Source: Pseudoxanthomonas suwonensis | Lineage (GTDB): Bacteria > Pseudomonadota > Gammaproteobacteria > Xanthomonadales > Xanthomonadaceae | Length of the DNA: 64,000 nucleotides | NCBI RefSeq assembly: GCF_000972865.1 | Contig: NZ_CP011144.1 | Location: 434,001-498,000 of the forward strand | Reading direction: 5' to 3' | Shown: positions 4,756 through 60,706 of the stretch, piece after piece | Layout: each line of letters begins with the position of its first letter | Numbering within the stretch: position 1 is the first letter of the stretch | Made by a program: the position numbers and the translations under genes | Notes under the pieces: generated by a model | Told to the model about the DNA's origin: nothing | The model's database searches: none | The model's input: only the letters and a program-made list of their open reading frames with translations

Positions 4756-4907
4756 GGCTTCGGAAGGGTCCGCCGTGCCCTGGGGGTATGGCGCATCGCT
4801 CCGCTCCGGCGTCCTGCCTCCGAGTCGCGAACGCAGCACATCCCTGTGCTGCTTGCGCCATACCCCCAGGGCACGACGGCCTCGGGAGCTTTGAGGGCAT
4901 GGCTTCG
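4756..4907 (-). repeat. Long-hairpin element, copy A (diverged)
   Basis: 152-bp element bounded by CGAAGCC at both ends (minus strand). A perfect 21-bp helix pairs 4774-4794 with 4855-4875. Its sequence differs from copies B, C and D, but the position, length and flanking box AAAGCTCCCGA are the same. Inside, 4833-4852 forms an 8-bp hairpin whose minus-strand loop context reads ACAGGGATGT. A second small stem (GGC/GCC) with AGGA in the loop lies near 4811-4821. Copy A points away from copy B, with the REP pair 4997-5088 between them. A short (CAACAG)n-like run at 4916-4933 lies on its 5' side. Confidence 0.75.
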
Positions 4908-4996
4908 ATCGGACGAGCAACAGCAACAGCAATGGCACCGGCATCCCCCAGGCCTCTCCTTCGCCGGCGGGCAAGCCCACGACGGCGCTGCTTGTT

Positions 4997-5088
4997 GTAG
5001 GAGCGGGCATGACCGCGACACGGGCGTCGGAATCACGAGGGCGTCGCCTGGGCCGACGGCGTCGGGTCGCGGTCATGCCCGCTCCTAC
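4997..5088. repeat. GTAG-type REP pair 1
   Basis: Inverted pair beginning GTAGGAGCGGGCATGACCGC and ending with the complement GCTCCTAC; arms of more than 20 bp pair perfectly. It lies between the divergent long-hairpin copies A and B. GTAG-starting REPs of this kind are known in Stenotrophomonas and Pseudomonas and are linked to RAYT transposases elsewhere in genomes; none is in this window. Confidence 0.85.
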
Positions 5089-5116
5089 AAAAGCCGTGCG
5101 CTGCTCCACGCCTGAA

Positions 5117-5265
5117 CGAAGCCACGACGCCAAAGCTCCCGAAGACGTGGCGGGCCGGGGGTATTGCGGCAGTGGCCAGGGATGGCCACGTCGGCGAGTC
5201 GGCACATGGATGTGCCGTCGAGACGACCGCAATACCCCCGGCCTGCCGCGGCTCAGACCGAAGCC
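5117..5265 (+). repeat. Long-hairpin element, copy B
   Basis: 149-bp element bounded by CGAAGCC. The 5' part can form a GCCACG/CGTGGC stem. The closing helix pairs 5149-5169 with 5227-5247 (21 bp with one G-U). Inside are two hairpins: GTGGCC-AGGGAT-GGCCAC (5172-5189) and CGGCACA-TGGA-TGTGCCG (5200-5217). The 3' end has a CGGCT/AGCCG stem. A GCGGTT triplet repeat follows at 5287-5304. The spacer 4665-5391 holds only copies A and B and REP pair 1; I see no convincing gene in it. Confidence 0.8.
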
Positions 5266-5391
5266 GACGCACACCCGACGCTTTTCGCGGTTGCGGTTGC
5301 GGTTCCTTCCGCCACTCTCCCAGGTGGCAAGCGCGCGAAAGCAGGCCCATCACCGTCGCGCTATCCTGTCCCACCGACCGCCACGCGCCCG

Positions 5392-6753
5392 ATGTCCGAG
5401 CAGAATCCCGTCCTCACCCCGAGCCAGCTCAACACGCTGGCGCGCGACCTGCTGGAGAGCGCGTTCCCGCTGGTCTGGGTCGAGGGCGAGCTGGGCAACA
5501 TCACCCGCCCCGGTTCCGGGCACCTGTACTTCACCCTGAAGGACGCGCGCGCCCAGGTGCGCTGCGCGATGTTCAAGCCCAAGAGCCAATGGCTGAAGTT
5601 CGTCCCGCGCGAGGGCCTGAAAGTGCTCGGCCGCGGCCGCCTCACCCTGTACGAGGCGCGAGGCGACTACCAGCTGGTGCTCGACCACCTCGAGGAAGCC
5701 GGCGAAGGCGCGCTGCGCCGCGCGTTCGAGGCACTGAAGGCCAAGCTCGAAGCCGAGGGCCTGTTCGACACCGGGCGCAAGCGCGAACTGCCGGCCTTCG
5801 TACGGCGGCTGGCGGTGATCACCTCGCCCACCGGCGCGGCCGTGCGCGACGTGCTCAGCGTGCTGGCGCGGCGCTGCCCGCTGCTGGAGGTGGATATCCT
5901 GCCCAGCCTGGTGCAAGGCGAGACCGCCGCGGCGCAGATCGCCGACCTGCTGCGCCGCGCCGGCGCCAGCGGCCGCTACGACGCGGTGCTGCTGGCCCGC
6001 GGTGGCGGCTCGCTGGAAGACCTGTGGGCGTTCAACGACGAACGCCTGGTGCGCGCGATCGCCGACTCGCCGGTGCCGGTGGTGTCGGCGGTCGGCCACG
6101 AGACCGACTTCACCCTGGCCGACTTCGCCGCCGACGTGCGCGCGCCCACTCCGTCGGTCGCCGCCGAACTGCTGGTGCCGGACCGGCGCGACCTGCAGGC
6201 GCGGCTGCGCGCGCTGCAGGAGCGCGTGCATTCGCTGCAGCGCCATCGCCTGCGCCAGGCCATGCAGCGCGCCGACCGCGCCGCGCTGCGGCTGCAGGCG
6301 CAATCGCCGCAGGCGCGGCTGCGCCTGCTCCGGCAGCGCCACGCCGAACTGCAGCGCCGCTTGCAGGCCCTGTGGCAGCAGCGCCTGCTGGACCGGCAGG
6401 CGCGTTTGCGCCATGCCGCCGCGGTGCTGCGCGCACACCATCCGGCGCGCCGGATGGCGCAGCTGCAGGCACGGCTGCAGCGGCTCGGTGCCCGGCCGCA
6501 GGCGGCCATCGCCCGCACCCTGCAGCGCGATGCGCTGCAGCTGCGCGCGCTGGCCCGTTCACTGGAGGCCTGCAGCCCGCTGGCCACCGTGGCGCGCGGC
6601 TATTCGATCCTCACCCGTGCCGACGACAGCCGGCTGGTCCAGTCGGTGGCGCAGGCCGCGCCCGGCGACCGCCTGCAGGCGCGCGTGCGCGACGGCGTGC
6701 TGGCGCTGTCGGTCGAGGGCGTGCTGCCTGATCCTCCGGAGCCGAATCCGTAG
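5392..6753 (+). CDS. xseA: Exodeoxyribonuclease VII large subunit
   Basis: Catalytic large subunit of ExoVII, which with several XseB copies degrades single-stranded DNA in both directions. The 453 residues start with an OB-fold ([24 protein letters not shown]), then the catalytic domain with [31 protein letters not shown] and [28 protein letters not shown], then a long Arg/Gln/Leu-rich coiled-coil stalk (about 265-400). It ends with the ARGYSIL region that binds XseB. The open frame runs further upstream through copy B, but [14 protein letters not shown] at 5392 matches the family start. A TATCCT hexamer at 5362-5367 may be its -10. Confidence 0.97.
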
Positions 6754-6770
6754 CGACCACGCTGCTTTCT

Positions 6771-6864
6771 GCAGGAGCCGGGTTCAGCCGGCGACCCGAC
6801 GCCGTCGGCACAGGCGATACCCCCGTGATTGCGGTACCCGTGTCGCCCATTGGTGGGCTCCTGC
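6771..6864. repeat. REP pair 2 (GCAG variant)
   Basis: Inverted pair between xseA and the glycosyltransferase. It begins GCAGGAGCCGGGTTCAGCCG and ends GGGCTCCTGC. The terminal tetranucleotide is GCAG instead of GTAG and the right arm is degenerate, so this is an older or decaying copy. Confidence 0.7.
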
Positions 6865-6954
6865 ACAGGAAGGTGCGTCACCCGGCGGTCATCCCAGCGT
6901 AACGGCGCTTGCATCCATGCGGCGGAGGATGGGCAAAACCCGGAGCCGCCGCGC

Positions 6955-8109
6955 ATGCGCTACGCCCTCGTCACCGAAACCTGGCCGCCGGAGGTCAACG
7001 GCGTCGCCCTGACCGTGCAAGGGCTGGCCCACGGCCTGCTCGCCCGCGGACACGCAGTGGAAGTGGTGCGGCCGCGTCAACCAGAAGATCCGGCGGACGG
7101 CACCGGCGAAGGTGCGATCGCGACCCTGCTGTTGCGCGGCGCCGCGCTGCCACGCTATCCGGGACTGCGCTTCGGCCTGCCGGCGACGCGCACCCTGCTG
7201 CGCCACTGGAAGCATGCGCCGCCGGACGCGCTCTACGTGGCCACCGAAGGCCCGCTGGGCTGGTCCGCGCTGCGCGCGGCGGCCAGGCTGGGCATCCCCG
7301 TGGCCACCGGCCTCCACACCCGGTTCGACCACTACATGCGCGACTACGGCATGCCGTGGCTGGAAGGCACCGCGCTGGCCTGGATGCGCCGCTTCCACAA
7401 CCGCGCCGACGCGACCCTGGTGCCGACCGTCGAGCTGCTGGACTTCCTGCGCATGCGCGGTTTCGAGCGCGTGACCCGGCTGGCGCGCGCGGTCGACACC
7501 ACGCAACTGTCGCCGGCGCTGCGCGACGACACCCTGCGCGCCGCCTGGGGCGCCGGCGCGGACACGCTGGTGGCGATCCACGTCGGCCGGATCGCGCCGG
7601 AAAAGAACCTGGACCTGGCGGTGCGTGCGTTCCGCGCGATCCAGCGGCGGCGTCCGCAGGCCCGCTTCGTCTGGGTGGGCGACGGGCCGGCGCGCGAAAC
7701 GCTGGCGCAGGCCAACCCGGACTTCGTGTTCTGCGGCGTGCAGCGTAGCGCCGAACTGGCGCGGCATTTCGCCAGCGGCGACCTGTTCCTGTTCCCGAGC
7801 CGCAGCGAGACCTTCGGCAATGTCACTCTTGAAGCGATGGCCAGCGGCGTGCCGACGTTGGCGTTCGACTCCGGCGCCGCGCGCGAGCACCTGGGCGACG
7901 GCGTGCACGGCGCGCTGGCGCGCGACGAGGCCGGGTTCATCGATGCCGCCGTGCGCCTGGCCGGCGACGACGAGACCCTGTGGGCGATGGGCCGGGCCGC
8001 GCGCGCGGCGGTGCTGCGGCTGCGCCCGGAGCAGGTCGCCGCGGATTTCGATGCACTGCTGGCGGGACTGGCCCGCCGGGGAGACAGCCGTGCCGCCCTC
8101 GCCGCCTGA
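6955..8109 (+). CDS. Glycosyltransferase family 4 (GDP-mannose-dependent mannosyltransferase-like)
   Basis: Cytoplasmic retaining GT-B glycosyltransferase, 384 residues. The N-terminal Rossmann domain begins MRYALVTETWPPEVNGVALT, typical of MgtA/PimB-like enzymes. The C-terminal domain carries HVGRIAPEKNLDLAV and the nucleotide-sugar binding E-x7-E motif in SRSETFGNVTLEAMASGVP. The ATG at 6955 is chosen because the conserved fold starts there; the frame remains open upstream. The stop overlaps the GTG of the PAP2 gene, so the two are translationally coupled. Acceptor not deducible; pairing with a lipid phosphatase suggests a glycolipid. Confidence 0.85.
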   Translation: MRYALVTETWPPEVNGVALTVQGLAHGLLARGHAVEVVRPRQPEDPADGTGEGAIATLLLRGAALPRYPGLRFGLPATRTLLRHWKHAPPDALYVATEGPLGWSALRAAARLGIPVATGLHTRFDHYMRDYGMPWLEGTALAWMRRFHNRADATLVPTVELLDFLRMRGFERVTRLARAVDTTQLSPALRDDTLRAAWGAGADTLVAIHVGRIAPEKNLDLAVRAFRAIQRRRPQARFVWVGDGPARETLAQANPDFVFCGVQRSAELARHFASGDLFLFPSRSETFGNVTLEAMASGVPTLAFDSGAAREHLGDGVHGALARDEAGFIDAAVRLAGDDETLWAMGRAARAAVLRLRPEQVAADFDALLAGLARRGDSRAALAA

Positions 8110-8671
8110 ACGCATCCTGCCCGCGCTGGCGCCGTCGCGCCGCCGCGCCGCGCGCCTGCGCGCCCGCGACCGCGGCTGGTGCGTGCGCGCCAACCGCTGG
8201 GGCGCGCGTGGCGCGGTGCGCCGCTACTTCGCCGTGGTCAGCCGGCTCGGCGACGGCGTGTTCTGGTATGGACTCATGGGCGCGCTGGTGGTGTTCGACG
8301 GCCTGCAGGGCCTGTCCGCCTCCGTGCACCTGGCCGCCACCGGCGTGGTCGCGCTGACCCTGTACAAGCGGCTCAAGCGCTGGACCCGGCGCCCACGGCC
8401 GTTCACCGCCGACGGGCGCATCCGCGCCTGGGTCGCGCCGCTGGACGAGTTCAGTTTTCCCTCCGGACACACGCTGCACGCGGTCGCCTTCAGCGTAGTC
8501 GCGCTGGCGTACTACCCATGGCTGGCGGCGCTGCTGATCCCGTTCACCGCCTCGGTGGCGGTGTCGCGGGTGGTACTGGGGCTGCACTATCCCAGCGACG
8601 TGCTGGCCGCAACCGCGATCGGATCGCTGCTGGCCGGTGCCTCGCTCTGGCTCGGCGCGGTGCTGTTGTAG
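8090..8671 (+). CDS. PAP2-family membrane phosphatase
   Basis: Probable inner-membrane lipid phosphate phosphatase, 193 residues. All three PAP2 signature blocks are visible: KRLKRWTRRPRP, PSGH in FSFPSGHTLHAVAFS, and SRVVLGLHYPSD. About four hydrophobic segments follow an Arg-rich cytoplasmic N-terminus. The GTG at 8090 is preceded by GGGGAGA at good spacing and overlaps the glycosyltransferase stop by 20 nt. The reading frame ends CTG TTG TAG, and this TAG is the TAG of the terminal GTAG of REP pair 3. Confidence 0.88.
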   Translation: MPPSPPERILPALAPSRRRAARLRARDRGWCVRANRWGARGAVRRYFAVVSRLGDGVFWYGLMGALVVFDGLQGLSASVHLAATGVVALTLYKRLKRWTRRPRPFTADGRIRAWVAPLDEFSFPSGHTLHAVAFSVVALAYYPWLAALLIPFTASVAVSRVVLGLHYPSDVLAATAIGSLLAGASLWLGAVLL

Positions 8672-8762
8672 GAGCCGGATTCAGCCGGCGACACGCCACG
8701 CTGGCACAGGCGACTCCCTCATTCTCCCGACGCCCGTGTCGCCGGCTGAACCCGGCTCCTAC
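8668..8762. repeat. GTAG-type REP pair 3 carrying two stop codons
   Basis: 95-bp inverted pair. The left GTAG supplies the stop codon of the plus-strand PAP2 gene (8669-8671) and the right one, read on the minus strand, supplies the stop of the nitrilase gene (8759-8761). It differs from REP pair 4 at only four positions. It can also fold as a long hairpin between two convergent genes and may terminate transcription in both directions. Confidence 0.9.
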
Positions 8763-9649
8763 AACGACGTGAAGCCCTCGACCCGGGCGCGGGCCAGCGC
8801 CGGCTGCTGCTGGCCGGGCCAATCGCGGTCGTTGGCGACCTGGGCGCGGCCGCGCGTGGCCTCGAGCAGGTCGAAGTCCAGGTCCGCCACCGCCCAGGCC
8901 TCGTCGCCGCGGGTGCGGGCGAGGATGCCGTCAGCGGGAAAGCCCGCGTCCATCGGCGCGTACAGCGTGGCCTCGCCGGTGTTCTCGTCCAGCGCCGGAC
9001 TCCACGGCGCCTGCCCGGCGGTGACCGACTGGGCGACGAACATGCGGTTCTCCAGCGCGCGCGCCAGGCAGCCGACCTGCACCCGGGTGGCGCCAGCGGC
9101 GGTGTCGGTGCAGCTGGGCACCAGCAGCAGCCGCGCGCCGGCTTCGTACTGGGCGCGTACCGGCAACGGGAACTCGCTGTCGTAGCAGACCGCGATACCG
9201 GCGCGGATGCCGCCGAGTTCGGCGACCTTCAACGCGTCACCACCGGCGATCGCGCCGCTGGCCTTCTCGAAGCCGGTCAGCTGCAGCTTGTCCTGCCACA
9301 GGTGGCCGCCGTCGGGCGCGAACAGGTCGCTGCGGTTGCGATGGCGGCCATCGTCCTGCGCCAGCAGGAAGCTGCCGGCGACCACGTGCATGCCGGTCTC
9401 GCGCGCCAGGCCGGCAAACAACTCCAGCCATGCCGCACGCAGGGGCTGGATCGCCGCCAGCGACGCGCGCAGGTCGCGATGCACCTCCGGGGGGAAGACC
9501 GCCGCCAGTTCCAGCGACAGGTACTCGGGCAACACCGCGACCTGGGCACCGGAGTCGGCGGCATCGCCCAGCAGCGCGCGCTGCCGGCGCGCGAATGCTT
9601 CGAAGTCGGCCGGCTGGCCCACCCGGTACTTGCAGACGGCCACCCTCAT
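8759..9649 (-). CDS. Carbon-nitrogen hydrolase (nitrilase superfamily)
   Basis: Amidase/nitrilase-fold hydrolase of unknown substrate, 296 residues, probably cytoplasmic. The Glu-Lys-Cys triad is visible: LPEYLSLE (Glu), WQDKLQLTGFEK (Lys) and IAVCYDSEFP (Cys). The start at MRVAVCKYR (9649) overlaps the acetyltransferase stop as ATGA. The coupled GNAT upstream suggests the two act on one small amine or amide, but the substrate is not readable from sequence. The gene ends in REP pair 3 with TTG TAG. Confidence 0.9.
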   Translation of the reverse strand: MRVAVCKYRVGQPADFEAFARRQRALLGDAADSGAQVAVLPEYLSLELAAVFPPEVHRDLRASLAAIQPLRAAWLELFAGLARETGMHVVAGSFLLAQDDGRHRNRSDLFAPDGGHLWQDKLQLTGFEKASGAIAGGDALKVAELGGIRAGIAVCYDSEFPLPVRAQYEAGARLLLVPSCTDTAAGATRVQVGCLARALENRMFVAQSVTAGQAPWSPALDENTGEATLYAPMDAGFPADGILARTRGDEAWAVADLDFDLLEATRGRAQVANDRDWPGQQQPALARARVEGFTSL

Positions 9650-10257
9650 GCCGCGTCCTTCAGTTCGCGCAGCCAGAAGGTCAGCGGGTGCTGCACCTCG
9701 CCGCGGTCGACCTCGTTCCACGGCAGCCAGGCGGTCATCCCCGGCAGGCGCGCGTAGCCGCGCTTGTGCCAGAACGAATCGTTGGAACGGTAGCCGGGCG
9801 GCCGCCGTGGATCGTCGGCGTCGCGGTCCACCGCGCAGAAGGCGGTCCAGCGGAACCGTCCCAGCGCACGCGCATGCGCCTCGCGCTCGTCGAAGAACGC
9901 ATGGCCCACGCCCAGCCCGCGGTAGCCCGGCAGCAGCACCGATTCGCCGAAATAGAAGACCTGCGCGACCGGCAGGCCGGCAGCGCGCAGCGGCCTGGAA
10001 AACGCATCAGGATCGTCGGCCAGTGGCAGCCCGGTGGACGCGCCGACCACCCGGCCGCCATCCAGGGCCAGCACCGCTACGCTGTCGGGCGAACCGAGGT
10101 AGACCGACAGGTACTCGCGCTCGTAGGCGTCGTCGGCCTGGCCGTCGTACAGGTAGGGCCACTCGCGGAACACGGCGATGCGCAGGCGGGCGATGTCGTC
10201 GAGCCACGGCGCGATGGCGTGGCCGCGCAGCCGGCGGATTTCGGGCTGATTGGACAT
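9646..10257 (-). CDS. GNAT-family N-acetyltransferase
   Basis: 203-residue protein with the GNAT acetyl-CoA binding signature LLPGYRGLGVGHAFFDER around residues 110-127 and a preceding VFYFGESV strand. The C-terminal region is rich in Trp and aromatic residues, and the substrate is unknown. It is first in a two-gene operon with the nitrilase. The ATG at 10257 lies 6 nt after a TAGAAT -10, so the mRNA is probably leaderless; no Shine-Dalgarno site is present. Confidence 0.87.
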   Translation of the reverse strand: MSNQPEIRRLRGHAIAPWLDDIARLRIAVFREWPYLYDGQADDAYEREYLSVYLGSPDSVAVLALDGGRVVGASTGLPLADDPDAFSRPLRAAGLPVAQVFYFGESVLLPGYRGLGVGHAFFDEREAHARALGRFRWTAFCAVDRDADDPRRPPGYRSNDSFWHKRGYARLPGMTAWLPWNEVDRGEVQHPLTFWLRELKDAA

Positions 10258-10263
10258 GCGCGG

Positions 10264-10269
10264 ATTCTA
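10264..10269 (-). promoter_or_regulatory. -10 hexamer of the GNAT-nitrilase operon (probable leaderless mRNA)
   Basis: Minus-strand TAGAAT followed by CCGCGC and then the ATG at 10257. The predicted transcription start coincides with the start codon. Same layout as queG. Confidence 0.55.
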
Positions 10270-10422
10270 TCCGCCAGCGACTTCGTGGCGGCGTGCCGCA
10301 GGTGGTCGAAGACAGGCGGACGCGACCGGCCTGCACGGCAGGCCGCATGTCCGGCGCAGGCTGATGACGCAGTGGCAACGGTTGCAACCAGACCCGGCAC
10401 AACCTGGCGATCGCCGCTTCCT

Positions 10423-10517
10423 GTAGGAGCCGGGTTCAGCCGGCGACACGCCACCTCGGCACAGGCGACTCCCTCATTCTCCCGACGCCCGTGTCGCCGG
10501 CTGAACCCGGCTCCTAC
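10423..10517. repeat. GTAG-type REP pair 4
   Basis: 95-bp inverted pair, identical to REP pair 3 except for four substitutions. Together they bracket the GNAT-nitrilase operon. It lies between the GNAT promoter and the recO 3' end. The remainder of the 10258-10529 spacer shows nothing else I can name. Confidence 0.9.
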
Positions 10518-10529
10518 ACGCGGCATGGG

Positions 10530-11258
10530 TCAGCGCGATGGGGCGAAACGACCCAGCGCGGCCATCTCCCACGACTTGAGCCCGCGCGGGCCAAGGTGGT
10601 GGGCCAGCACCGCGCGCAGCGGCAGGCGCAGGCTGGCCAGGTCGGCGGCGTCGGGACGCGTGTCGACGGCCAGCGCCAGCAGCGCGCGGCCGGTGGCCGC
10701 GGCGCTGCGCTCGGCCTGGCCGCGGTCGCTGAGCAGGCGGCGCGGGCCGTGTTCCGGATCCAGTCGGTAGCGCGCAGCCGGATCCAGCGGCTCGCCGTCG
10801 CCGTCGCAATGCAGCTCGAAACCCACGCCCAGCGCCTCGAGCAGGTCGCGTTCGAACCGGCGCAGGGTCCAGGCCAGCGGCTCGCCGCCACGCAACCGCT
10901 CGCGGGTGCGCGCATAGGCGGCGCCGAGCTCGGGCAGCGGATCCTGGCGCGGGGCCAGCCGCAGCACCAGTTCGTTGAGGTAGAAGGCGGCCAGCAGCGC
11001 GTCGCCGGCCAGCGGCGGGGCTGCGTCCAGCGCCTCGGCCGCGCGCAGCTGCGCCAGTTCGCCGACCAGGACCGCGTCGAAGCGGATGTGCTGCAGCGGT
11101 TGCAGCGCCGCGCGCAGCACCTGCCGCTTCGGCGAGTGCACCCCGCGCGCGACCAGGCCAATGCGACCGTGTCCGGCGCTCAGCACCTCGACCAGCAGGC
11201 TGGTCTCGCGCCAGGACCGCGCGTGCAGGACGAAGCCGGTGTCGCCTTCGATACGCAT
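10530..11258 (-). CDS. recO: DNA repair protein RecO
   Basis: Recombination mediator that loads RecA onto SSB-coated single-stranded DNA together with RecR (recR is at 45116-45715 here). The 242 residues have the N-terminal OB-fold ([24 protein letters not shown]), the segment [11 protein letters not shown], and the helical domain with [17 protein letters not shown]. As in many gammaproteobacteria, the zinc-finger cysteines of Gram-positive RecO are missing. The ATG at 11258 is the natural start. It is downstream of era, separated by a spacer with a GGGGAA-type inverted repeat. Confidence 0.93.
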
Positions 11259-11268
11259 GGAGTAAGGG

Positions 11269-11364
11269 CGGGGAACAGGGAATGGGGAATGAAGGAAATC
11301 GCGAGGCCCGGGCAGCAGCGCCCTGTCATTCCCGCTTTTTCATTCCCCCATTCCTTGTTCCCCG
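11269..11364. repeat. GGGGAA-type inverted spacer repeat, copy 1
   Basis: Left arm GGGGAACAGGGAATGGGGAA near 11270 and right arm CATTCCCCCATTCCTTGTTC at 11341 are imperfect complements, forming a stem of more than 20 bp between recO and era. Related copies are at 14253-14350 and, more diverged, 45016-45104. Confidence 0.7.
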
Positions 11365-11368
11365 ACCC

Positions 11369-12286
11369 TCATTCGTACCCGAACGCCTTCAGCGCCGCCT
11401 CGTCGTCCGACCAGCCCTCGCGCACGCGCACCCACGTTTCCAGGAACACCTTGCGGCCGAACAGGCGTTCCATCTGCTGCCGCGCCTTGCTGCCGATCTC
11501 GCGCAGCCGCACGCCGCCCTTGCCGATCACGATCGGCTTCTGGCCCTCGCGCTCGACCCAGACCACCGCGCCGATCCGCAGCAGCTCGCCGTCCTCGGCG
11601 AAGCGCTCGATCTCCACCGTGGTCGCGTACGGCAGCTCGTCGCCGAGCTGGCGCATCAGCTGCTCGCGGACCAGCTCGCCGGCGAGGAAGCGCTGGCTGC
11701 GGTCGGTGATCTCGTCCTCCTCGTACACCGGCGGCGCCTCGGGGACCAGCTTCAGCAGGTCGCGCAGCAGCTGCTCCAGGCCCTTGCGCTTGAGCGCGGA
11801 CACCAGGTGGATCGCGGCGAAGTCGCGGCCCTCGCTGACCTGGGCCAGGAACGGCAGCAACGCGCTCTTGTCCTTGAGCCGGTCGACCTTGTTGACCGCC
11901 AGCACCACCGGGATGCCGCCGGCACGCAGCACGTTGAAGACCAGTGTGTCCTCCTCGTCCCAGCGCCCGGCCTCGACCACCATCAGCGCCGCGTCCACGT
12001 CCTCCACCGCGCTGCGCGCGGTGCGGTTCATCACCCGGCTCATCGCCGAGGCCTTGAACCGGCCCTGGCCGCGGTGCAGGCCGGGGGTGTCGACCAGCAG
12101 CAGCTGGCCGCCCTCGACGGTGGCGATGCCCAGCAGCCGGTGCCGGGTGGTCTGCGGCCGGTTGGAGACGATGCTGACCTTGGCCCCGACCAGGGCGTTG
12201 ACCAGGGTGGACTTGCCGACGTTGGGCCGGCCGATCACCGCGACGCTGCCGCAGCGGTGGGAATCTGGATTCTGTTCGGAATTCAC
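11369..12286 (-). CDS. era: Ribosome-assembly GTPase Era
   Basis: GTPase that binds the 3' end of 16S rRNA during 30S maturation. The 305 residues have GRPNVGKS (19-26), the effector region [14 protein letters not shown] near residue 66, NKVD, and a C-terminal KH domain with VIGKGG. The start is a GTG at 12286; no ATG is available before the P-loop. It follows rnc with a 26-bp gap, the standard rnc-era order. Confidence 0.96.
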
Positions 12287-12312
12287 TTTGACTCAAAGCT
12301 GGAGAGAAACGC

Positions 12313-13372: not shown

Positions 13373-13435
13373 TGCCATTCCCCTTGACTCGGATGCCTCG
13401 GACGCACGCCGGTTGTATGCCATCCCGGCAGCGCG

Positions 13436-14236: not shown

Positions 14237-14252
14237 GCGGGATCCTAAGTAG

Positions 14253-14350: not shown

Positions 14351-14357
14351 TTCATCA

Positions 14358-48315: not shown

Positions 48316-48324
48316 TATCCGCCG

Positions 48325-49896: not shown

Positions 49897-50007
49897 GGTG
49901 GCCCCGTCGGCCCCTCGCGACGCTAGGTCGAAAATCCCGCCAGGGCCGGAAGGCAGCAACGGTATCGATCGACGCGGGCGCCGAGGCAAGCCGGCGGGGC
50001 CGCCACC
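49897..50007 (+). ncRNA. ffs: 4.5S signal recognition particle RNA
   Basis: About 111 nt. The conserved Ffh-binding apex is present as CAGGGCCGGAAGGCAGCAAC at 49943-49962. The ends pair (GGTGGCCCCG with CGGGG...CCACC) and TTTT follows, so the closing stem also serves as terminator. A TAGAAT at 49802-49807 could be its -10, implying a processed leader of about 80 nt. End positions are from pairing and accurate to a few bases. Confidence 0.88.
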
Positions 50008-50473: not shown

Positions 50474-50504
50474 AAAAGCCGGGCCCTGATCGCCTCACTG
50501 CGAA

Positions 50505-50653
50505 CGAAGCCACGACCCCAAAGCTCCCGAAGACGTGGCGGGCCGGGAGTATTGCGGCAGCGGCCAGGGATGGCCGCGTCGGCGAGTCGGCACAGGGATG
50601 TGCCGCCGAGACGACCGCGATACTCCCGGCCCGCCGCGGCTCAGCCCGAAGCC
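50505..50653 (+). repeat. Long-hairpin element, copy C
   Basis: 149 bp, bounded by CGAAGCC. The closing helix pairs 50537-50557 with 50615-50635 (21 bp, one G-U). Internal hairpins: GCGGCC-AGGGAT-GGCCGC (50560-50577) and CGGCACA-GGGA-TGTGCCG (50588-50605). A GCGGTT/GTTGCC/GTTGTC repeat run follows at 50679-50712. The spacer before the YncE-like gene holds nothing else. Confidence 0.8.
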
Positions 50654-50739
50654 GACCACACCCGGCGCTTTTGACTATGCGGTTGCGGTTGCGGTTGCCG
50701 TTGTCGTTGTCGTGACGACGTATGGCGAGAGCTATCCCG

Positions 50740-52271: not shown

Positions 52272-52272
52272 C

Positions 52273-53033: not shown

Positions 53034-54056
53034 TCAACCTCCGATCAGGTACATCTCGATGTGCTTGCGCGGCGCCTGCGGATTGCCGCGGATCTCGCTG
53101 TAGCGGTCGCCGCGCCGCGCCCACAGGCCGGACACGCGGCTGGCCAGCGCCGCCGCGCCCTGCGCCAGCGCCGGCTTCAGATCATGCCCCTCGCCGGCGA
53201 ACAGGCAGGTGTAGAGCCGGCCGTCGGCGGACACGCGCGCACGGTGGCAGTCGCCGCAGAACGGCGCACTGACCGAACTGACGAAACCGACCTCGCCGCC
53301 GCCGTCGGCGAAGGCGTAGCGCTCGGCCACCTCGCCGCGGTAGCGGGACTGCAGCGGGCGCAGCGGCCAGCGCGCGGCGATGCGGTCGCGCAGTTCGGCC
53401 GAGGCCACGACCTGGTCCTGGCGCCAGCCGTTGCAGGTGCCCACGTCCATGTACTCGATGAAGCGGACCACGTGGCCACTGCCGCGGAAGCGCTCCAGCA
53501 GCGGCAGCACCTGGTCCTCGTTGGCGCCGCGGCGAACCACGCAGTTGATCTTCAGCGCGCCGAAGCCGGCCGCCTCGGCCGCGGCGATGCCCGCCAGCAC
53601 CGCGCCGACCTCGCCACGCCCGCCGGACATCGCGCGGAACGCCTGCGGATCGAGCGCATCGAGGCTGACCGTGATCCGGTGCAGCCCGGCCTGGCGCAAC
53701 GCGCGTGCCTGCGCAGCCAACAGCGAGCCGTTGGTGGTCAGCGCCAGGTCGTCGATGCCGGGGATCCGGGCCAGCCGCGCGACCAGCTCCGGCAGGTGCC
53801 TGCGCAGCAGCGGCTCGCCGCCGGTCAGGCGCAGCTTGTGCATGCCCAGCGTGGCGAAACCGCGCACCAGCGTCTCGATCTGGTCGAAGTCCAGCCGCGC
53901 GGCCGAATCCAGCCCGTGGTCGTCGGGAATGCGGTCGGCCGGCATGCAGTAGCCGCAGCGGAAGTTGCAGGCGTCGATCACCGACAGGCGCAGGTCGCGC
54001 AGCGGCCGGCCAAGGCGGTCGTGCGGCAGCGCCTGCAGCGGCCGGGCCAGGTTCAT
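53034..54056 (-). CDS. moaA: GTP 3',8-cyclase MoaA
   Basis: Radical SAM enzyme of the first molybdopterin step. The 340 residues have the N-terminal CNFRCGYC cluster, LRLTGGEPLLR, and the C-terminal cluster CGDCHRARVSADGRLYTC, and end in the conserved Gly-Gly. The start at 54056 overlaps the MBL gene stop (ATGA). Confidence 0.96.
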   Translation of the reverse strand: MNLARPLQALPHDRLGRPLRDLRLSVIDACNFRCGYCMPADRIPDDHGLDSAARLDFDQIETLVRGFATLGMHKLRLTGGEPLLRRHLPELVARLARIPGIDDLALTTNGSLLAAQARALRQAGLHRITVSLDALDPQAFRAMSGGRGEVGAVLAGIAAAEAAGFGALKINCVVRRGANEDQVLPLLERFRGSGHVVRFIEYMDVGTCNGWRQDQVVASAELRDRIAARWPLRPLQSRYRGEVAERYAFADGGGEVGFVSSVSAPFCGDCHRARVSADGRLYTCLFAGEGHDLKPALAQGAAALASRVSGLWARRGDRYSEIRGNPQAPRKHIEMYLIGG

Positions 54057-54814
54057 GGCAGCGCCGGCATCGTCGCCCGCGGCGCGGCCAGTGGCCACGA
54101 CTCGCCCGGGCGCGCCACCCGGTAGCCGCGGGCCACCATCGCGGTGGCGTCGGCGTGGCCGGCGTAGTGGTAGAGCAGCATGCGCTTGCGCAGCGCCTCG
54201 CCGTACTCGCGCTCCAGGTCGTCCAGCCCGGTGTGCGAGGGATTGCCGTGCAGCGCGCAATCGTGGGCGATGAGCTCGCCTGCGTCGGCGTGGCGCGCCA
54301 GCATCTCCGGGATCGGCCGGGTGTCGCCGCTCCAGACCACGCTGCCGCGCAGGCGCAGGCCGAAGGCGGTGTCGGGCCAGTGGTGGCGCACCGGGAACAC
54401 CTCCAGCCGCAGCCCGTCGTGCCAGAACGCATCGCTGACCGGCACCAGCTGGAACGCGTCCCAGAAATTGGCGCCGCCCTCGGCCAGCACGTTGGGATAG
54501 TCGCCCACCCGCCGCTGCAGCAGCGGCACCACCGGCGCCGGCACGTACAGGCGCGTGCGCCCCTGGCGTTCGGGATCGAAGTAGGTCGACACGAACAGCC
54601 GCTCCAGCCCGGCCACGTGGTCCATGTGCACGTGGGTGATGAACACCGCCCCGGGCGGATGGCCGTACTGCGCCTCGAATGCGCTCAGCCCCTCGGCGCC
54701 GCAGTCGATGGTCAGCCACGGTTTGCCCTGGTGCTCGATGCTGGCCATGGCCGAGCCCAGCTCCACCGCCGACGCATTGCCGACCCCGTGCAACCGCAGC
54801 GACCAGGCGTCCAT
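54053..54814 (-). CDS. MBL-fold metal-dependent hydrolase
   Basis: 253 residues with metal ligands in THVHMDHVAGLE (HxHxDH), further His in PVRHHWPDTAF and Asp in VVWSGDTRPI, close in style to RNase Z/phosphodiesterase-type MBL proteins. The substrate is unknown. Coupled on both sides: TGATG with kdkA and ATGA with moaA. Confidence 0.85.
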   Translation of the reverse strand: MDAWSLRLHGVGNASAVELGSAMASIEHQGKPWLTIDCGAEGLSAFEAQYGHPPGAVFITHVHMDHVAGLERLFVSTYFDPERQGRTRLYVPAPVVPLLQRRVGDYPNVLAEGGANFWDAFQLVPVSDAFWHDGLRLEVFPVRHHWPDTAFGLRLRGSVVWSGDTRPIPEMLARHADAGELIAHDCALHGNPSHTGLDDLEREYGEALRKRMLLYHYAGHADATAMVARGYRVARPGESWPLAAPRATMPALP

Positions 54815-55563
54815 CAGCAGCCCCGCTTCCAGGCTAGGTCGTAGGCCCGGCGCAGGCGGGCGAAGTCGGCCTCGACCTCGGCCGAGGCGCGCTCGCCGCG
54901 CAGCTTGAGCAGCGAGCGCTGCAGCCGGCGCAGGTTGGCCTCGCGCCAGTGCGTGGCCGGGATGCGCATGCGGCCGCGGTCGAAATCGATCATCCAGCCA
55001 CGGCCGTTGCCGTCGAACAGAAGGTTGTGCGCGTTGAGGTCGGCGTGGTCCAGGCCCTCGCGGTGGAAGCGCGCGATCAGCCGGCCGGCCTCCTCCCACG
55101 GCGCGCCGTTGCCGGCCACCAGCGCGCGGTCGGCCAGCGAGCGCACGTCCATCAGCCGCTCCAGCAGGATCGACGCGCGGTACCGGAAACCGTCGCGGGC
55201 ATAACTGGCGGCCAGCGGCTTGGGCACCGGCAGGCCACGGCCCAGCAGTTCGCGCATCAGCCGGAACTCGGCGAAACTGCGCGTGTGCGAGGCGCCGCGC
55301 CACAGGTAGTGGTCGCGGCTGAAGCGGGCGGCCAGGCCGCCACGCAGATACTGGCGCAGCACGCAGGGACCGAATGGCGCGTCGACGAACCAGGCGCCAC
55401 CGCGGCCGCCGGAGCCCACCGGCCGAGCCCGCTCGCCCCAGGCCGCCGGCGAGAACAGATCGGCGCCGGCTTGCCGCAGCCGTTGACGGTCGAAGAGAAT
55501 GGCACCGTACCCGCTCTCCGCGCGGTACGGCGTCAGGGCTTCGCTGGCGTCGAAGGCGACCAT
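54814..55563 (-). CDS. kdkA: 3-deoxy-D-manno-octulosonic acid kinase
   Basis: KdkA phosphorylates Kdo in the lipopolysaccharide inner core in organisms with a single Kdo. The 249 residues show [20 protein letters not shown], the catalytic loop [12 protein letters not shown] and the metal-binding IDFDRGR. The ATG at 55563 lies 7 nt after a TAGACT hexamer, suggesting a leaderless mRNA. Divergent from a heptosyltransferase gene, fitting an LPS core role. Confidence 0.9.
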
Positions 55564-55570
55564 CCGCACG

Positions 55571-55576
55571 AGTCTA
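55571..55576 (-). promoter_or_regulatory. -10 hexamer of the kdkA-MBL-moa transcript (probable leaderless)
   Basis: Minus-strand TAGACT, 7 nt before the kdkA ATG, within the 29-bp divergent spacer. No clear -35; that region would lie inside the heptosyltransferase gene. Confidence 0.4.
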
Positions 55577-55592
55577 ACAACACCCGCAAGCG

Positions 55593-56633
55593 ATGCGCCC
55601 CTCACTCTGCCTGCTGCGCCTGTCCGCCCTCGGCGACGTGACCCACGTCGTGCCGCTGGTGCGCACCCTGCAGCGCGCCTGGCCGGACGCCCCGCCGCTG
55701 CACTGGGTCATCGACCCGGCCGGCCTGCGCCTGCTCGACGGGTTGGACGGGGTGGTGTTCCACGTCTACGACAAGCGCAGCGGCCTGGCCGGCATGCGCG
55801 CCCTGCGCCGCGCCTTGCCGTCGGGCGGCTTCGACGTGCTGCTGCAGATGCAGGTCGCGTTCCGGGCCAACCTGTTGTCCGCGTACATCCCGGCGCGCCG
55901 GCGGATCGGCTACGACCGGTCGCGCTCGAAGGACCTGCACGGGCTTTTCATCAACGAACGCATTCCCGACCGCCCCGGCATCCATGTGCTGGATGCGATC
56001 GGCAGCTTCTGCGAACCGTTGGGACTGCAGCAGACCGACGTGACCTGGGACCTGCCGGTGCCCGAGGCGGCGCGGGCGTGGGCCCACGACCAGTGGCCCG
56101 ACGACGGCGCCCCGGTGCTGATGGTCTCGCCCTGCTCCAGCCACGTGCGCCGCAACTGGTACGCCGACCGCTACGCCGCGCTGGCCGACCATGCCGCCAC
56201 ACGCGGCTGGCGGGTGGTGCTGTGCGGCGGCCGCAGCGAACTGGAACGGCAGACCGCCGACGCGATCCTGGCGGCGATGCGCGCCCCGGCCCTGGACCTG
56301 GTCGGCAAGGACACGCTCAAGCAGCTGCCGGCGCTGCTCGAACGCGCCAGCCTGCTGGTCACCCCCGACTCCGGGCCGATGCACATCGGCAACGCGATGG
56401 GCACCAAGGTGCTGGGCCTGCACGCGGCCAGCAACCCGGCCCGCAGCGGCCCCTATTCGGATCGCCGCTACTGCGTGGACCGCTACGACGACGCCGCGCG
56501 CCGCTACCTGGGCAAGCCGGCCGCGGCGCTCAAGTGGGGGACCAAGATCGAGCACGAGGGCGTGATGGAGCTGGTCACCGTGGACGACGCGATCGATGCC
56601 TTCGAACGCTATCGCGCCGATCACGGCGGCTGA
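55593..56633 (+). CDS. LPS heptosyltransferase-like GT9 glycosyltransferase
   Basis: 346-residue GT-B enzyme of family 9, WaaC-like. It opens [20 protein letters not shown], has [20 protein letters not shown], the ADP-heptose binding region [20 protein letters not shown], and conserved [12 protein letters not shown]. Likely adds heptose to Kdo in the LPS inner core; heptosyltransferase I is the best guess. Divergent from kdkA by 29 bp. Confidence 0.9.
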
Positions 56634-56639
56634 GCCGGC

Positions 56640-59600
56640 ATGTCCGGCCGGGACGCCGGCGGCATGAAAGCAGGCGCCAGCGTCGCCGCAGCGGCCGCCT
56701 TCCGCCCCCTGCCCGGCTCGGCGGTCCTGGTCCTGTTCGTCGTCTCCGGCTTCGCCGGGCTGGTGTACCAGTCGCTGTGGTCGCACTACCTGGGCCTGGT
56801 GCTGGGCCATGCCGCCTACGCGCAGAGCCTGGTGCTGGCGATCTTCATGGGCGGGATGGCGCTGGGCGCGTGGCTGGCGGCGCGGATGGGCCTGCACTGG
56901 ACCCGGCTGCTGCGCGCCTACGCGCTGGCAGAGGCCGCCATCGGCGTGCTCGGCCTGGCCTTCCATCCGCTGTTCCTCGGCTACCTGGGCCTGTCGGACG
57001 CGGTGCTGCCGGCGCTCGGCGACGGGATGGCCGGACGCGCGTATCCGTGGCTGTCGGCGGCGCTGCTGATCCTGCCGGCCTGCCTGCTGCTCGGCGCGAC
57101 CTTCCCCCTGCTCAGCGCCGGCTGGCTGCGTGCCGCGGAGCGCGACCGCAATCGTGGCCGGGGCCAGGACGCGCGCGTGCTCGGCGGGCTGTATTTCGCC
57201 AACAGCCTGGGCGCGGCGGCGGGCGCGCTCGGCGCGACCTTCCTGCTGCTGCCGCGGCTGGGCATGCCCGGGGCGATGGCCGTGGCCGGCATCGCCAACC
57301 TGGCGGTGGCCGCGGCCGCGTGGTGGCTGTCGCAGCGCCACGAGTGCGCGTCCGCCCCTGCGGCGGCCGTCGCTGCGTGGCCGGAGGAACGCGTGGCGGC
57401 GCGTACCGGGCTGACGCGCGCAGTGCTGTGGATCGCGCTGCTGTCGGGCGCCTGCTCGTTCGTCTACGAGATCGGCTGGATCCGCCTGCTCAACCAGGCG
57501 CTGGGCACGACCCTGCACAGCTTCGAACTGATGCTGGCCGCGTTCCTGCTGGGCCTGGCCTTCGGCGGCGCCTGGGTCTACCGGCGCGCGCCGCGGCTGG
57601 CCGATCCGCTGCGCACCGCGGCGCTGGCACAGGTTGCGATGGGCGTGGCCGCGCTGCTGTCGCTGCTCGCCTTCGCCCACTCGTTCGAATGGACCGCGGC
57701 GCTGGTGCAGTCGCTGTCGCGCACCGACGGCGGCTACCGGCTGTACCTGCTCGGCAGCGCCGGCATCGCGCTGGCGGTGATGCTGCCGGCCGCGTTCTTC
57801 GCCGGTACCACGTTGCCATTGTTCACTCTGGCCCTGCTCCGCACCGGCGCCGGCGAGGCGTCGATCGGCCGGCTGTACGCCGCCAATACCATCGGCGCCA
57901 TCGTCGGCGTGCTGCTGATGGTCCACCTGCTGATCCCGCTGGTCGGCGTGCGCATCGGCATCATGCTGGCCGCCGGCGGCGACGTGCTGCTCGGCTTCTG
58001 GCTGCTCGCGCACGCCCGCGGCGAACTGGCGCCACGCCGGATCGCCGGGCTGGCGCTGGCCGCGGCCGCTGCCTTCGCGGTGGTGGCGACGTGGGGGCGG
58101 CCCGATCCGCGCGCGCAGCTGTCCGGCGTGTTCCGCACCGGCTTCGCCCGGCTCGACGAGGGGCTGCAGGTGCCGTTCCTGCGCGACGGCAAGACCGCGA
58201 CGATCGGCGTCGCCCGCTCGCCGGCGCACGGGACGCTGTCGCTGCTGACCAACGGCAAGTCCGACGGCGCGATGTCGGCCACCCTGCAGGGGCCACCCGG
58301 TGGCGATGAGCTGACCATGGTCAGCCTCGGCGCGCTGCCGCTGGCGCTGCACCCGCAGCCGCGGCAGGTCGGGGTGATCGGCCTGGGCCTGGGCCTGTCG
58401 ACCCACACCCTGCTGGGCAGCGACCGCGTGCAGCGGGTGGAGACGGTGGAGATCGAGCCGATGGTCCACGCCGCCGCCTCGCGCCATTTCGCCCCGCGCA
58501 TCGAGCGCGCGCTGCACGACCCGCGCTCGGCGATCCGTTTCGACGACGCACGGCGTTTCTTCGCCAGCCAGCGGCGCCGCTACGACGTCGTCGTCTCCGA
58601 ACCGTCCAACCCCTGGGTCAGCGGCGTCGCCAGCCTGTTCACGGCCGAGTTCTACGCGTTCCTGCACGGGCACCTGGCCGAGGACGGGCTGCTGGTGCAG
58701 TGGCTGCAGACCTACGAGATCGACGACGCGCTGCTGGCGCGGATCGTGGCCGCGCTGCTGCAGGCATTCCCGGACGCGGAGGTATACGTGGCGCAGGACA
58801 ACGACCTGGTGGTGGTCGCCTGCCGCAGTCGCTGCCCGGCCGCCGATGCGCAGCGCCTGCAAGCGACCGCGGCGCTGGCGCGCGAGACCGCGCGGGTCGG
58901 CTTCGACAGCGATGCCGCGCTGCAGCTGCGCCGGATCGGCGGACGCGGGCTGCTGCAGACCTACGTCCGCGCGCTGCAGGCCGAGCCGCACAGCGACTTC
59001 CACCCGGTCGTGGCCCTGCAGGGACCGCGCACCCGCTTCCGCGGCGACCGCGCCGACACCCTGCAGCGCCTGGCCGACAACGGCCTGCCGGTGCTGGACC
59101 TGCTGGAGGGGCGCACCCCGCCGCCGGCCGCCGAGCCCGCCCGCGCCCTGCCCGGCCACGGCCTGCTGCTGGCGCGCGAACGGGCGATCATGCTGGCCGG
59201 CGCGCTGCGCGACGGCGGCCACGCCAGCGTCCTGGCCCTGCGCGAACGCGACGCGCCCGCCGCCGAGGCTCAGTTGCAGGCGCTGCTGGGCCTGTCGCGC
59301 GGCGCGGTGGCCGACCCGGCCACCTGGGCCGACGCCGCGTCGGCCATGGCGATGGCCACGCTCGGGCACCTGCCCGCCGACGACCTGCGCGGCGCCTGGA
59401 TCGAACCGGCCTGGATCGATCCGTCGCTGCAACCGGAACCGGTGCGGCGCATGCTGGCGATGTACGCCGCCGCCGCCGCCCGCGACGCGGCGGCCATGCG
59501 CGCCAGCGGCGAAGCGTTGCTGCAGCTGCCACAGGCGTTGCCGCCGCAGGTGCAGGAACAGGCGCTGCTGATCGCCCAGCTCGGCGCCATCGGCATCGGC

Positions 59601-59765
59601 CGGCCGGACGAGGTGGAACGGCTGCACGCCGGCTACGGCGTGGCGCTGCCGCACAGCGCGCGGCTGCGCATGGTCCGGCACTTCGTGCGGATCCGCGCGC
59701 TGGAACTGGAGGACGGGCGCCGCGCGCAGGCGGCGGCGGTTCAGGGCGCCGGGCCGCCGCGGTAG
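56640..59765 (+). CDS. Large membrane protein fused to a spermidine-synthase-like domain
   Basis: 1041 residues. Residues 25-490 hold about 13 hydrophobic segments in two repeats (each starting FAGLVYQSLWSHYLGLVLG-like: compare CSFVYEIGWIRLLNQALG). Residues about 500-750 resemble a spermidine synthase: IGLGLGLSTHTLL, VETVEIEPMVHAA, DDARRFF and VVVSEPSNPWVSGVASLFT. About 290 residues follow that I cannot assign. Similar fusions are annotated as polyamine aminopropyltransferase-like, but the substrate is unproven. It follows the GT9 gene by 6 bp. Confidence 0.85.
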   Translation: MSGRDAGGMKAGASVAAAAAFRPLPGSAVLVLFVVSGFAGLVYQSLWSHYLGLVLGHAAYAQSLVLAIFMGGMALGAWLAARMGLHWTRLLRAYALAEAAIGVLGLAFHPLFLGYLGLSDAVLPALGDGMAGRAYPWLSAALLILPACLLLGATFPLLSAGWLRAAERDRNRGRGQDARVLGGLYFANSLGAAAGALGATFLLLPRLGMPGAMAVAGIANLAVAAAAWWLSQRHECASAPAAAVAAWPEERVAARTGLTRAVLWIALLSGACSFVYEIGWIRLLNQALGTTLHSFELMLAAFLLGLAFGGAWVYRRAPRLADPLRTAALAQVAMGVAALLSLLAFAHSFEWTAALVQSLSRTDGGYRLYLLGSAGIALAVMLPAAFFAGTTLPLFTLALLRTGAGEASIGRLYAANTIGAIVGVLLMVHLLIPLVGVRIGIMLAAGGDVLLGFWLLAHARGELAPRRIAGLALAAAAAFAVVATWGRPDPRAQLSGVFRTGFARLDEGLQVPFLRDGKTATIGVARSPAHGTLSLLTNGKSDGAMSATLQGPPGGDELTMVSLGALPLALHPQPRQVGVIGLGLGLSTHTLLGSDRVQRVETVEIEPMVHAAASRHFAPRIERALHDPRSAIRFDDARRFFASQRRRYDVVVSEPSNPWVSGVASLFTAEFYAFLHGHLAEDGLLVQWLQTYEIDDALLARIVAALLQAFPDAEVYVAQDNDLVVVACRSRCPAADAQRLQATAALARETARVGFDSDAALQLRRIGGRGLLQTYVRALQAEPHSDFHPVVALQGPRTRFRGDRADTLQRLADNGLPVLDLLEGRTPPPAAEPARALPGHGLLLARERAIMLAGALRDGGHASVLALRERDAPAAEAQLQALLGLSRGAVADPATWADAASAMAMATLGHLPADDLRGAWIEPAWIDPSLQPEPVRRMLAMYAAAAARDAAAMRASGEALLQLPQALPPQVQEQALLIAQLGAIGIGRPDEVERLHAGYGVALPHSARLRMVRHFVRIRALELEDGRRAQAAAVQGAGPPR

Positions 59766-60172
59766 TCCCGGTAGGACTTCTCCTCGACGTAGGCCGAGCC
59801 CAGCGCCAGGTTGATCTCCTTCTTCACCCGCGCGCGCTCGTCGTTCTCGAAGTACACGCTGCGCGCCAGGCGCACGAAATCCGCGTCGAACGCCTGCGCC
59901 TTCTCCTTGACCCGGACCTCGTCCTCGATGTCCCACAGGCGCTCGTTGACCGCCTTCAGCTGCGCGCGCAGCTGGGCGATGCCCGCCCCGGATCCCGATC
60001 CGGGGGCGCCGCCGGCGGCCGGGTGCTGCATCCAGGTGCGCTCCAGCGCCGACAGCTCCTTGCGCACGTTGGCCAGCTTGGCCGGATCGGTCATGCGCTC
60101 GGACTTGATCTGCAGGATCGCGATCTTGTCGAGCAGTTCGCCGAAGGAAACGGGCACCAGGATTTCGGACAT
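59741..60172 (-). CDS. DUF6165 family protein
   Basis: 143-residue charged, mostly helical protein: ILVPVSFGELLDKIAILQIK is the family signature, followed by coiled-coil-like stretches. It is often encoded near surface polysaccharide genes; function unknown. Its 3' end overlaps the 3' end of the convergent fusion gene by 25 nt. Confidence 0.8.
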   Translation of the reverse strand: MSEILVPVSFGELLDKIAILQIKSERMTDPAKLANVRKELSALERTWMQHPAAGGAPGSGSGAGIAQLRAQLKAVNERLWDIEDEVRVKEKAQAFDADFVRLARSVYFENDERARVKKEINLALGSAYVEEKSYRDYRGGPAP

Positions 60173-60331
60173 GGCGGCATGCGCGTGCGGGAAGGCCGCC
60201 AGTCTACCGCCAACACTCGCCGCCGCCGGGCTCGGCCGGCTCCGCGAGTTTCGGCTTGGCGTGAAGCCGCCGCCTGCAGGGCAAAAGCATCGCTTCGGCC
60301 GGGGGCCGCCGTGCAGGCGTCGAACAGCGGG

Positions 60332-60383
60332 GGACGCTGCCTGTGCCGGCGGCGTCGGGTCGCCGGCTGAACCCGGCTCCTAC
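60332..60383. repeat. Half REP element 7
   Basis: Right-arm unit only, ending GGCTGAACCCGGCTCCTAC, with the GGCGTCGGGTCGCC core seen in REP pair 5. The left arm is missing. The preceding spacer 60173-60331 shows nothing I can name. Confidence 0.7.
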
Positions 60384-60408
60384 AACAGCCGCGCCGTCAC
60401 CGCTCTCT

Positions 60409-60503
60409 GTAGGAGCTGACTTCAGTCGGCGACACGGGCGTCGGAATCACGAGGGCGTCGCCCGTGCCGACGGCGTCGCGTCGCGGGCAAGCCCGGCTCC
60501 TGC
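60409..60503. repeat. GTAG-type REP pair 8
   Basis: Left arm GTAGGAGCTGACTTCAGTCG (as in REP pair 6), right arm CGGGCAAGCCCGGCTCCTGC (GCAG variant). Mosaic pair upstream of long-hairpin copy D. Confidence 0.8.
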
Positions 60504-60556
60504 ACAAGAGCAGGTCCTCGGGCGACGAACGGAGCCGGACAGGCCGTTGGCGATGA

Positions 60557-60706
60557 CGAAGCCACGACCCCAAAGCGCCCCGAAGACGTGGCAGGCCGGG
60601 TGTGTTGCGGCAGCGGCCAAGGATGGCCGCGTCGGCGAGTCGGCACACGGATGTGCCGCCGAGACGACCGCAACACACCCGGCCTGCCGCGGCTCAGACC
60701 GAAGCC
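60557..60706 (+). repeat. Long-hairpin element, copy D
   Basis: 150 bp, bounded by CGAAGCC. Perfect 21-bp closing helix, 60590-60610 with 60668-60688. Internal hairpins: GCGGCC-AAGGAT-GGCCGC (60613-60630) and CGGCACA-CGGA-TGTGCCG (60641-60658). A GTTGCC/GTTGCG-type run follows at 60726-60780. No gene is supported in 60173-60850. Confidence 0.8.

Follow-up and report, generated by a model that had tools for sequence, protein, structure and literature searches.

The window analyzed here, 64,000 nt of the Pseudoxanthomonas suwonensis genome (positions 434001–498000 of a single contig of 3,891,720 bp), contains four copies, A–D, of an intergenic repeat that consists of a long helix with two small hairpins. 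The hairpin loops follow the pattern A-N-GGA-U and are mostly spaced 27–30 nt apart. The four copies occupy the coordinates and strands proposed for them in an initial annotation (Table 1), but what had been described there as a four-copy element is a high-copy repeat with 93 checked places in the genome. These copies are probably dispersed RNA modules, each of which would be transcribed and would hold one RsmA/CsrA dimer.

Copies B, C, and D are alike, in agreement with the initial annotation; copy A, which had been grouped with them, belongs to a separate subfamily and resembles C (∼76%) in its 5′ 86–88 nt only. A comparison with miniature inverted-repeat transposable elements (MITEs), which carry terminal inverted repeats and target-site duplications, showed direct CGRAGCC repeats at the ends of single elements. 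A BLAST search with copy B gave at least 40 near-complete places (the best 40 of 162 candidates), and one with copy A gave at least 40 places, two of them partial (the best 40 of 113 candidates). The exact hairpin motif GCACANGGATGTGC occurs at 67 forward and 64 reverse sites in the genome, whereas its reversed control is found at none (0 + 0). Among 100 motif sites listed (of 131), 58 fall inside the BLAST places and 42 outside. Of the latter, 20 were fetched, and a long stem is present at 13 (12 with two GGA loops and one with a single GGA loop), giving 93 checked long-stem elements (80 BLAST places and 13 motif sites). The 30 best places of each search plus copy D form the set studied in detail (31 B-like and 30 A-like copies), which leans to similar copies.

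The other 7 of the 20 sampled sites belong to a different, shorter repeat, so that not all 131 motif sites can be element copies. This third, short repeat of the genome consists of hairpin CCSGCACATGGATGTGCSGG followed by TTGCGAGGGAYTCGCA, both with GGA loops, and lacks the long helix. Because this third repeat with paired GGA loops weighs in favor of an RsmA partner, the lower checked copy number leaves the odds of such a partner as before. At loci L366, L367, L370, L374, L378, L380, and L382, the short repeat has its second hairpin, TGCGAGGGAYTCGCA, ∼21 nt on and is sometimes arranged in tandem.

Folding of the repeat and the strand under selection

Initially put at 21 bp, the long helix measures 26 bp in copy A and 23–24 bp in the other three copies. 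Relative to dinucleotide shuffles, the fold energy has a z-score of −6.1 (copy C) and −7.3 (copy A) as RNA and of −7.1 (copy C) as DNA. The paired changes reported in the initial annotation are all present. For copies B, C, and D in turn, helix pair 4 (alignment columns 38/130) is G-U, G-C, and A-U, and pair 12 (columns 46/122) is G-C, A-U, and U-A; pair 15 (columns 49/119) is A-U in B and C and G-C in D; and the inner-hairpin pair at columns 59/74 is U-A in B and C-G in C and D.

The larger set supports the initial suggestion that selection acts on a folded form, be it RNA or DNA. On sequence-based alignments, standard pairs make up 99.8% of the helix cells in the 31 B-like copies and 98.7% in the 30 A-like copies. 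Neither value is reached in 500 shuffles, and a control with slid partners gives 30–48%. Helix cells changed on both sides number 29 (B-like) and 12 (A-like), compared with shuffled means of 8.1 and 1.8. In the A-like set, none of 500 shuffles reaches any of five covariation measures. Two measures are weaker in the B-like set and count against selection on the fold: pairs with a double change number no more than 4, with 2.4 in shuffles (12 of 500 reach 4), and further pair types do not exceed the shuffles (484 of 500 reach the observed value).

Double changes alone are insufficient, because copying from arm to arm could make them. Palindrome correction (template switching from one arm to the other) or gene conversion among the copies would preserve complementarity without any selection on the fold. 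Indeed, some pairs switch among A-U, G-C, U-A, and C-G nearly without intermediates (B 46/122; A 44/133 and 51/124), and the copies are related and may be homogenized. Such correction should, however, lack a strand preference. We therefore compared G-U with A-C on the GGA-loop strand in eight groups, using a stem score that makes no difference between G-T and A-C, and only interior positions with two Watson–Crick pairs on each side. The interior cells comprise 148 G-U, 28 A-C, 95 other mismatches, and 2093 Watson–Crick pairs. Counted as distinct sequence contexts, there are 60 G-U, 20 A-C, and 36 other mismatches (G-U versus A-C, p = 8.6e-6, a nominal value because the copies are related). G-U exceeds A-C in 8/8 groups (own B, own A, G113, G082, G057, g44, G097, and Xanthomonas g17), the strand in the six non-own groups being assigned by the GGA loops. 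A first count (178 G-U and 98 A-C) was set aside, as stem ends had been included. Strand-biased deamination in transcription could add to this asymmetry.

The preference for G-U over A-C on the GGA-loop strand points to the fold of one strand rather than to a symmetric correction of the arms, and the selected feature seems to be the fold of the GGA-loop strand. Because the loops also stay constant while the stems are replaced between genera, we regard arm correction or gene conversion as a very unlikely explanation.

In minimum-free-energy (MFE) folds, two GGA loops are present in 60 of the 61 own-genome copies chosen by BLAST and in 135 of 139 elements from the eight groups (for 78 of these, the search model itself contained the loops), at a spacing of 22–37 nt. 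The A, the GGA, and the U are constant, and the base before GGA can be G, T, C, or A, which is incompatible with a GNRA tetraloop. Kissing between the loops of sense and antisense twins was likewise rejected, since the free base is equal in 10 of 28 twins, with 12.4 expected.

The covariance-model search proposed in the initial annotation extends the repeat to other genera. The B-like model (E ≤ 0.001, with up to 20 candidates scored in each genome) matches in 42 of 149 Xanthomonadaceae genomes and 22 of 54 genera; of 10 genomes chosen for the A-like model, 6 have a match. At the loci inspected, the helix sequence diverges widely between genera, whereas the long helix, the hairpins, the GGA loops, and their spacing are retained; examples of loops elsewhere in the family are CATGGATG, CAGGATG, and CACGGATG.

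A sequence-blind search for long stems was made beside loci L061–L118, which had been selected with covariance models (55 of the 58 were used; three under 3 kb were excluded). It returned 25 stems outside the model hits, 14 of which have two GGA loops in their MFE fold. CA(N)GGAYG is confined to one strand in 24 of the 25 stems (the exception is L063), with a single site in L076, L079, L091, and L113. The 24 motif-bearing stems span 12 genomes, nine of them coming from G082. Oriented by the motif, 17 are outward relative to the model hit and 3 are in tandem (L062, L075, and L097). At L109, L111, L115, and L117, where the hit has no motif form, the stems are outward too, with the strand taken from the A-like model search.

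RsmA/CsrA as a putative partner

CsrA/RsmA binds A-N-GGA-U in hairpin loops; the core obtained by systematic evolution of ligands by exponential enrichment is ACARGGAUGU, and the RsmE site is A/UCANGGANGU/A. A single dimer is able to span two sites separated by some tens of nucleotides. By sequence, the paired loops of the repeat would fit this consensus, with the N left free. Transcription of the GGA-loop strand would allow the long helix to present its two small hairpins, and the two A-N-GGA-U loops (or close variants), mostly at the spacing given above, would then jointly bind one RsmA/CsrA dimer. With about a hundred copies acting together, this may titrate RsmA, as a distributed sponge, and/or place RsmA on mRNA tails.

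Two features of the Csr/Rsm sponge class are found here, namely at least two GGA motifs in hairpin loops and a host that encodes CsrA/RsmA. The host genome has one copy of csrA; across the family, the gene is present in 145 of 149 genomes, including 135/135 of those of good quality. Host CsrA aligns over residues 1–55 with the protein of PDB code 2jpp, which we take to be RsmE with RNA. Among 299 genomes of the phylum, at least five motif hairpins (GCMCANGGATGKGC) occur in 17 of 180 genomes with csrA and in 3 of 119 without (p = 0.014), and two of these three are only 69–74% complete. At a distance of 339 nt on the 3′ side of csrA, beyond a tRNA-Ser gene and on the opposite strand, there is an element (L242:2011-2159, minus strand); given a density of one motif site per 30 kb, such proximity is unremarkable.

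Several points weigh against RsmA/CsrA as the partner. The association with csrA takes no account of ancestry and has a p value of 0.069 at a cut-off of at least 10 hairpins. When the five genomes of the host's own family are left out, it falls to 14 of 175 versus 3 of 119 (p = 0.038), with p values of at least 0.050 at higher cut-offs. G341 lacks a csrA match and has six motif hairpins, with one for the control, and within the family the B-like model finds the element in only 42 of the 149 genomes. The loop counts in the non-own groups are biased because these groups came from models containing GGA loops; the sequence-blind stems are less biased, yet they adjoin loci found with such models. 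Scans around copies A/B and C gave no sigma-70-like promoter, and the sense strand of copy D would need a promoter of its own because D is antisense to both neighbors. Finally, the Xanthomonas RNA RsmU is reported to have still bound RsmA with all four GGA motifs changed (PMC7694677).

Twin layout, neighboring palindromes, and gene context

Frequently, the repeat forms a composite of an A-like copy (−), a spacer, two inverted GTAG-type repetitive extragenic palindromes (REPs), and a B-like copy (+), often with a short (TTGCGG)n run. Among the 100 listed motif sites, 29 pairs lie within 1 kb: 28 point outward, none inward, and in one both sites share a strand. The remaining 42 sites stand alone, in some cases (e.g. 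L059) because the hairpin of the partner is altered. The gene on the 3′ side is on the opposite strand and faces the element at 42 of the 55 loci where one was called (24/29 B-like and 18/26 A-like; 2 B-like and 4 A-like loci have none); the calls come from a home-made gene finder seeded by third-codon-position GC content (GC3), which gave the strand of xseA correctly, missed queG, and overlapped the element itself at 3/31 B-like and 7/30 A-like loci. As the twins point outward from the pair of REPs, with a tendency toward the 3′ ends of neighboring genes, read-through from either side would first meet the antisense twin and then the sense twin, which may bind RsmA.

The orientation toward 3′ ends and the very stable long helix would also suit a bidirectional 3′-end device, i.e. 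a terminator or exonuclease barrier of the kind suggested for REPs, in which RsmA would play no part. However, scans placed no terminator-like site at the helices of copies A, B, and C, each giving one site elsewhere, with 0.4 and 0.6 expected, and in many B-like copies TTTT comes only ∼35 nt after the helix. Moreover, copy B lies 126 nt ahead of xseA and copy D between two minus-strand genes. Such a device would not need invariant GGA loops at 27–30 nt, and we consider it distinctly improbable.

A mobile element of single-stranded DNA (ssDNA), with hairpins recognized by a Y1/HUH transposase similar to REP-associated tyrosine transposases (RAYT) and a fold kept for mobility rather than for an RNA role, would account for the high copy number and for the REP pairs beside most copies inspected. 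It is also in line with presence and absence of the element within the genus. At the orthologous queG–xseA site, the host carries the full composite, G087 one element, and G010 and G136 none; G113 and G060 have other short palindromes there, and in Xanthomonas G064 no element separates xseA from the queG-like frame (judged by eye) ahead of it. The genome encodes two Y1 transposases, and one of the genes (L240; G000:C1:2795476-2795802) has GTAG REPs on either side, with the GTAGGAG core seen in the window. G-T is better tolerated than A-C in ssDNA as well. On the other hand, no motif hairpin lies within 3.3 kb around this REP-flanked gene; the second Y1 locus (L241) has one reverse motif match. 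A Y1_Tnp match, which is wider than RAYT, is found in 28 of 42 element-bearing and 74 of 107 other genomes, and thus shows no association. The 14 of 42 element-bearing genomes without such a match include G082 (18 element matches) and G057 (14). As mobility alone would also leave the GGA loops, with their free N and near-constant spacing, unexplained, we regard it as an unlikely sole basis of the fold.

A combination of mobility with RsmA/CsrA binding can be put forward only tentatively: a (formerly) mobile repeat family might have turned into a genome-wide RsmA/CsrA sponge in part of the Xanthomonadaceae, similar repeats having arisen in other csrA-bearing lineages. If so, about a hundred intergenic elements, many of them twins readable both ways, would set the level of free RsmA/CsrA, and scattered paired CsrA-type sites would link transposon-like repeats to global post-transcriptional control. 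The repeat family would accordingly bear on RsmA titration in the Xanthomonadaceae.

Table 1. Copies of the repeat and associated features in the window
Feature	Position	Strand	Remarks
Copy A (A-like), 152 nt	4756–4907	−	Arms 4855–4880 and 4769–4794; on either side queG (+, ends 4664) and xseA (+, starts 5392)
Copy A, apical hairpin 1	4833–4852	−	Loop GGGA; from fold
Copy A, apical hairpin 2	4808–4818	−	Loop AGGAC; from fold
Bacterial interspersed mosaic element (BIME), two inverted GTAG-type REPs	4996–5089		Between twins A and B; from sequence
Copy B (B-like), 149 nt	5117–5265	+	Outward twin of A; arms 5146–5168 and 5228–5250
Copy B, hairpin 1	5172–5189	+	Loop GGGA, 5179–5182
Copy B, hairpin 2	5200–5217	+	Loop TGGA, 5207–5210
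Further GTAG-type REP stretches	6760–6850, 8657–8763, 10412–10518
REP/BIME stretch	about 50260 (or 50247)–50480		Directly upstream of copy C; from sequence
Copy C	50505–50653	+	Arms 50534–50556 and 50616–50638; hairpins 50560–50577 and 50588–50605; 3′ of small signal recognition particle (SRP) RNA gene (49904–50000, +); faces 3′ end of beta-propeller gene (−, ends about 50740)
REP/BIME stretch	about 60310–60510 (or 60500)		Upstream of copy D; from sequence
Copy D	60557–60706	+	Arms 60587–60609 and 60669–60691; hairpins 60613–60630 and 60641–60658; 5′ box with one-base insertion; neighbors DUF6165 gene (59741–60172, −) and tRNA-Ser (60851–60941, −)

Several REP variants coexist in the host genome. 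Hexamer runs of variable number (TTGCGG, TTGCAG, TTGACC, or TTGCCG) lie 3′ of many B-like copies, for example at 50690–50710 of the window.

Relation to known families and wider occurrence

The sponge RNAs CsrB/CsrC/RsmX/Y/Z carry GGA-loop hairpins placed for CsrA/RsmA dimers and are single-locus small RNAs with many sites; to our knowledge, the known CsrA sponges are all single small RNA genes. In contrast, the element described here is spread over many loci, each with two sites, and neither a promoter nor a terminator is known for it. The Bacillus cereus repeat bcr1 (∼155 bp, dispersed) is thought to act at the RNA level, and we know of no CsrA link for it; its host differs, and the likeness is one of description.

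The initial annotation knew of no family with such a layout, and in agreement with this no Rfam match was found at the elements in the window, at six loci scanned at E ≤ 10, and at the Xanthomonadales loci among 18 scanned. The literature searched gave no description of the element. The Rfam families TwoAYGGAY (RF01731) and reverse-complemented Bacillaceae-1 (RF01690), predicted by Gardner and Eldai to bind and sequester CsrA (PMC4333381), likewise have two adjacent hairpins with GGA loops. However, their covariance models do not match the elements, which differ by the 23–26-bp closing helix, the two twin families, the outward layout, about a hundred copies in one genome, and their occurrence in Xanthomonadaceae. 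Elsewhere, a Bacillaceae-1 match covers a two-hairpin pattern match on the opposite strand (L142) or lies ∼640 nt from one (L198).

RsmU of Xanthomonas campestris, the one RsmA antagonist RNA found for the Xanthomonadaceae in the literature searched, derives from a 3′ untranslated region and binds RsmA in vitro and in coimmunoprecipitation (PMC7694677). By its description, and not by sequence, it is set apart from the element, having sizes of about 80 and 120 nt, one locus, and a rho-independent terminator; it was therefore rejected as an element copy. Like REPs and BIMEs, the element is intergenic and of high copy number, and REPs lie between its twins. REPs are described as tagged palindromes of 20–40 bp, whereas the element is ∼150 nt long with two GGA hairpins and has no such tag, the GTAG/CGTC tag sitting in the neighboring REPs. 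The element also occurs in genomes without a Y1_Tnp match. Given the predicted CsrA binders TwoAYGGAY and Bacillaceae-1, the distinctness of RsmU, and the lack of an Rfam match, we count the element as nearest to the paired CsrA-type RNAs. Paired CsrA-type hairpins are already known; their form as a dispersed, outward-twinned, high-copy repeat is new.

In the genome collection, the 80 listed loci with the two-hairpin pattern comprise 46 from Xanthomonadales, 21 from other Gammaproteobacteria, 5 from Bacilli, 4 from unplaced proteobacteria, and 4 from others. At three loci of G283, from another gammaproteobacterial family (L334, L352, and L358), two GGA hairpins again sit on a long helix, the sequence of which is a different one. 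In two csrA-bearing genomes of other classes, G149 (L335, L341, L353, and L359; 45 motif hairpins in 2.9 Mb) and G269 (L336, L342, L348, L354, and L360), one GGA hairpin stands beside a plain hairpin. At L122, L166, L185, and L188 (Methylococcaceae and other proteobacteria), 51-bp tandem units contain two GGA hairpins, GCACANGGATGTGC followed by GGCAGGATGCC or similar.

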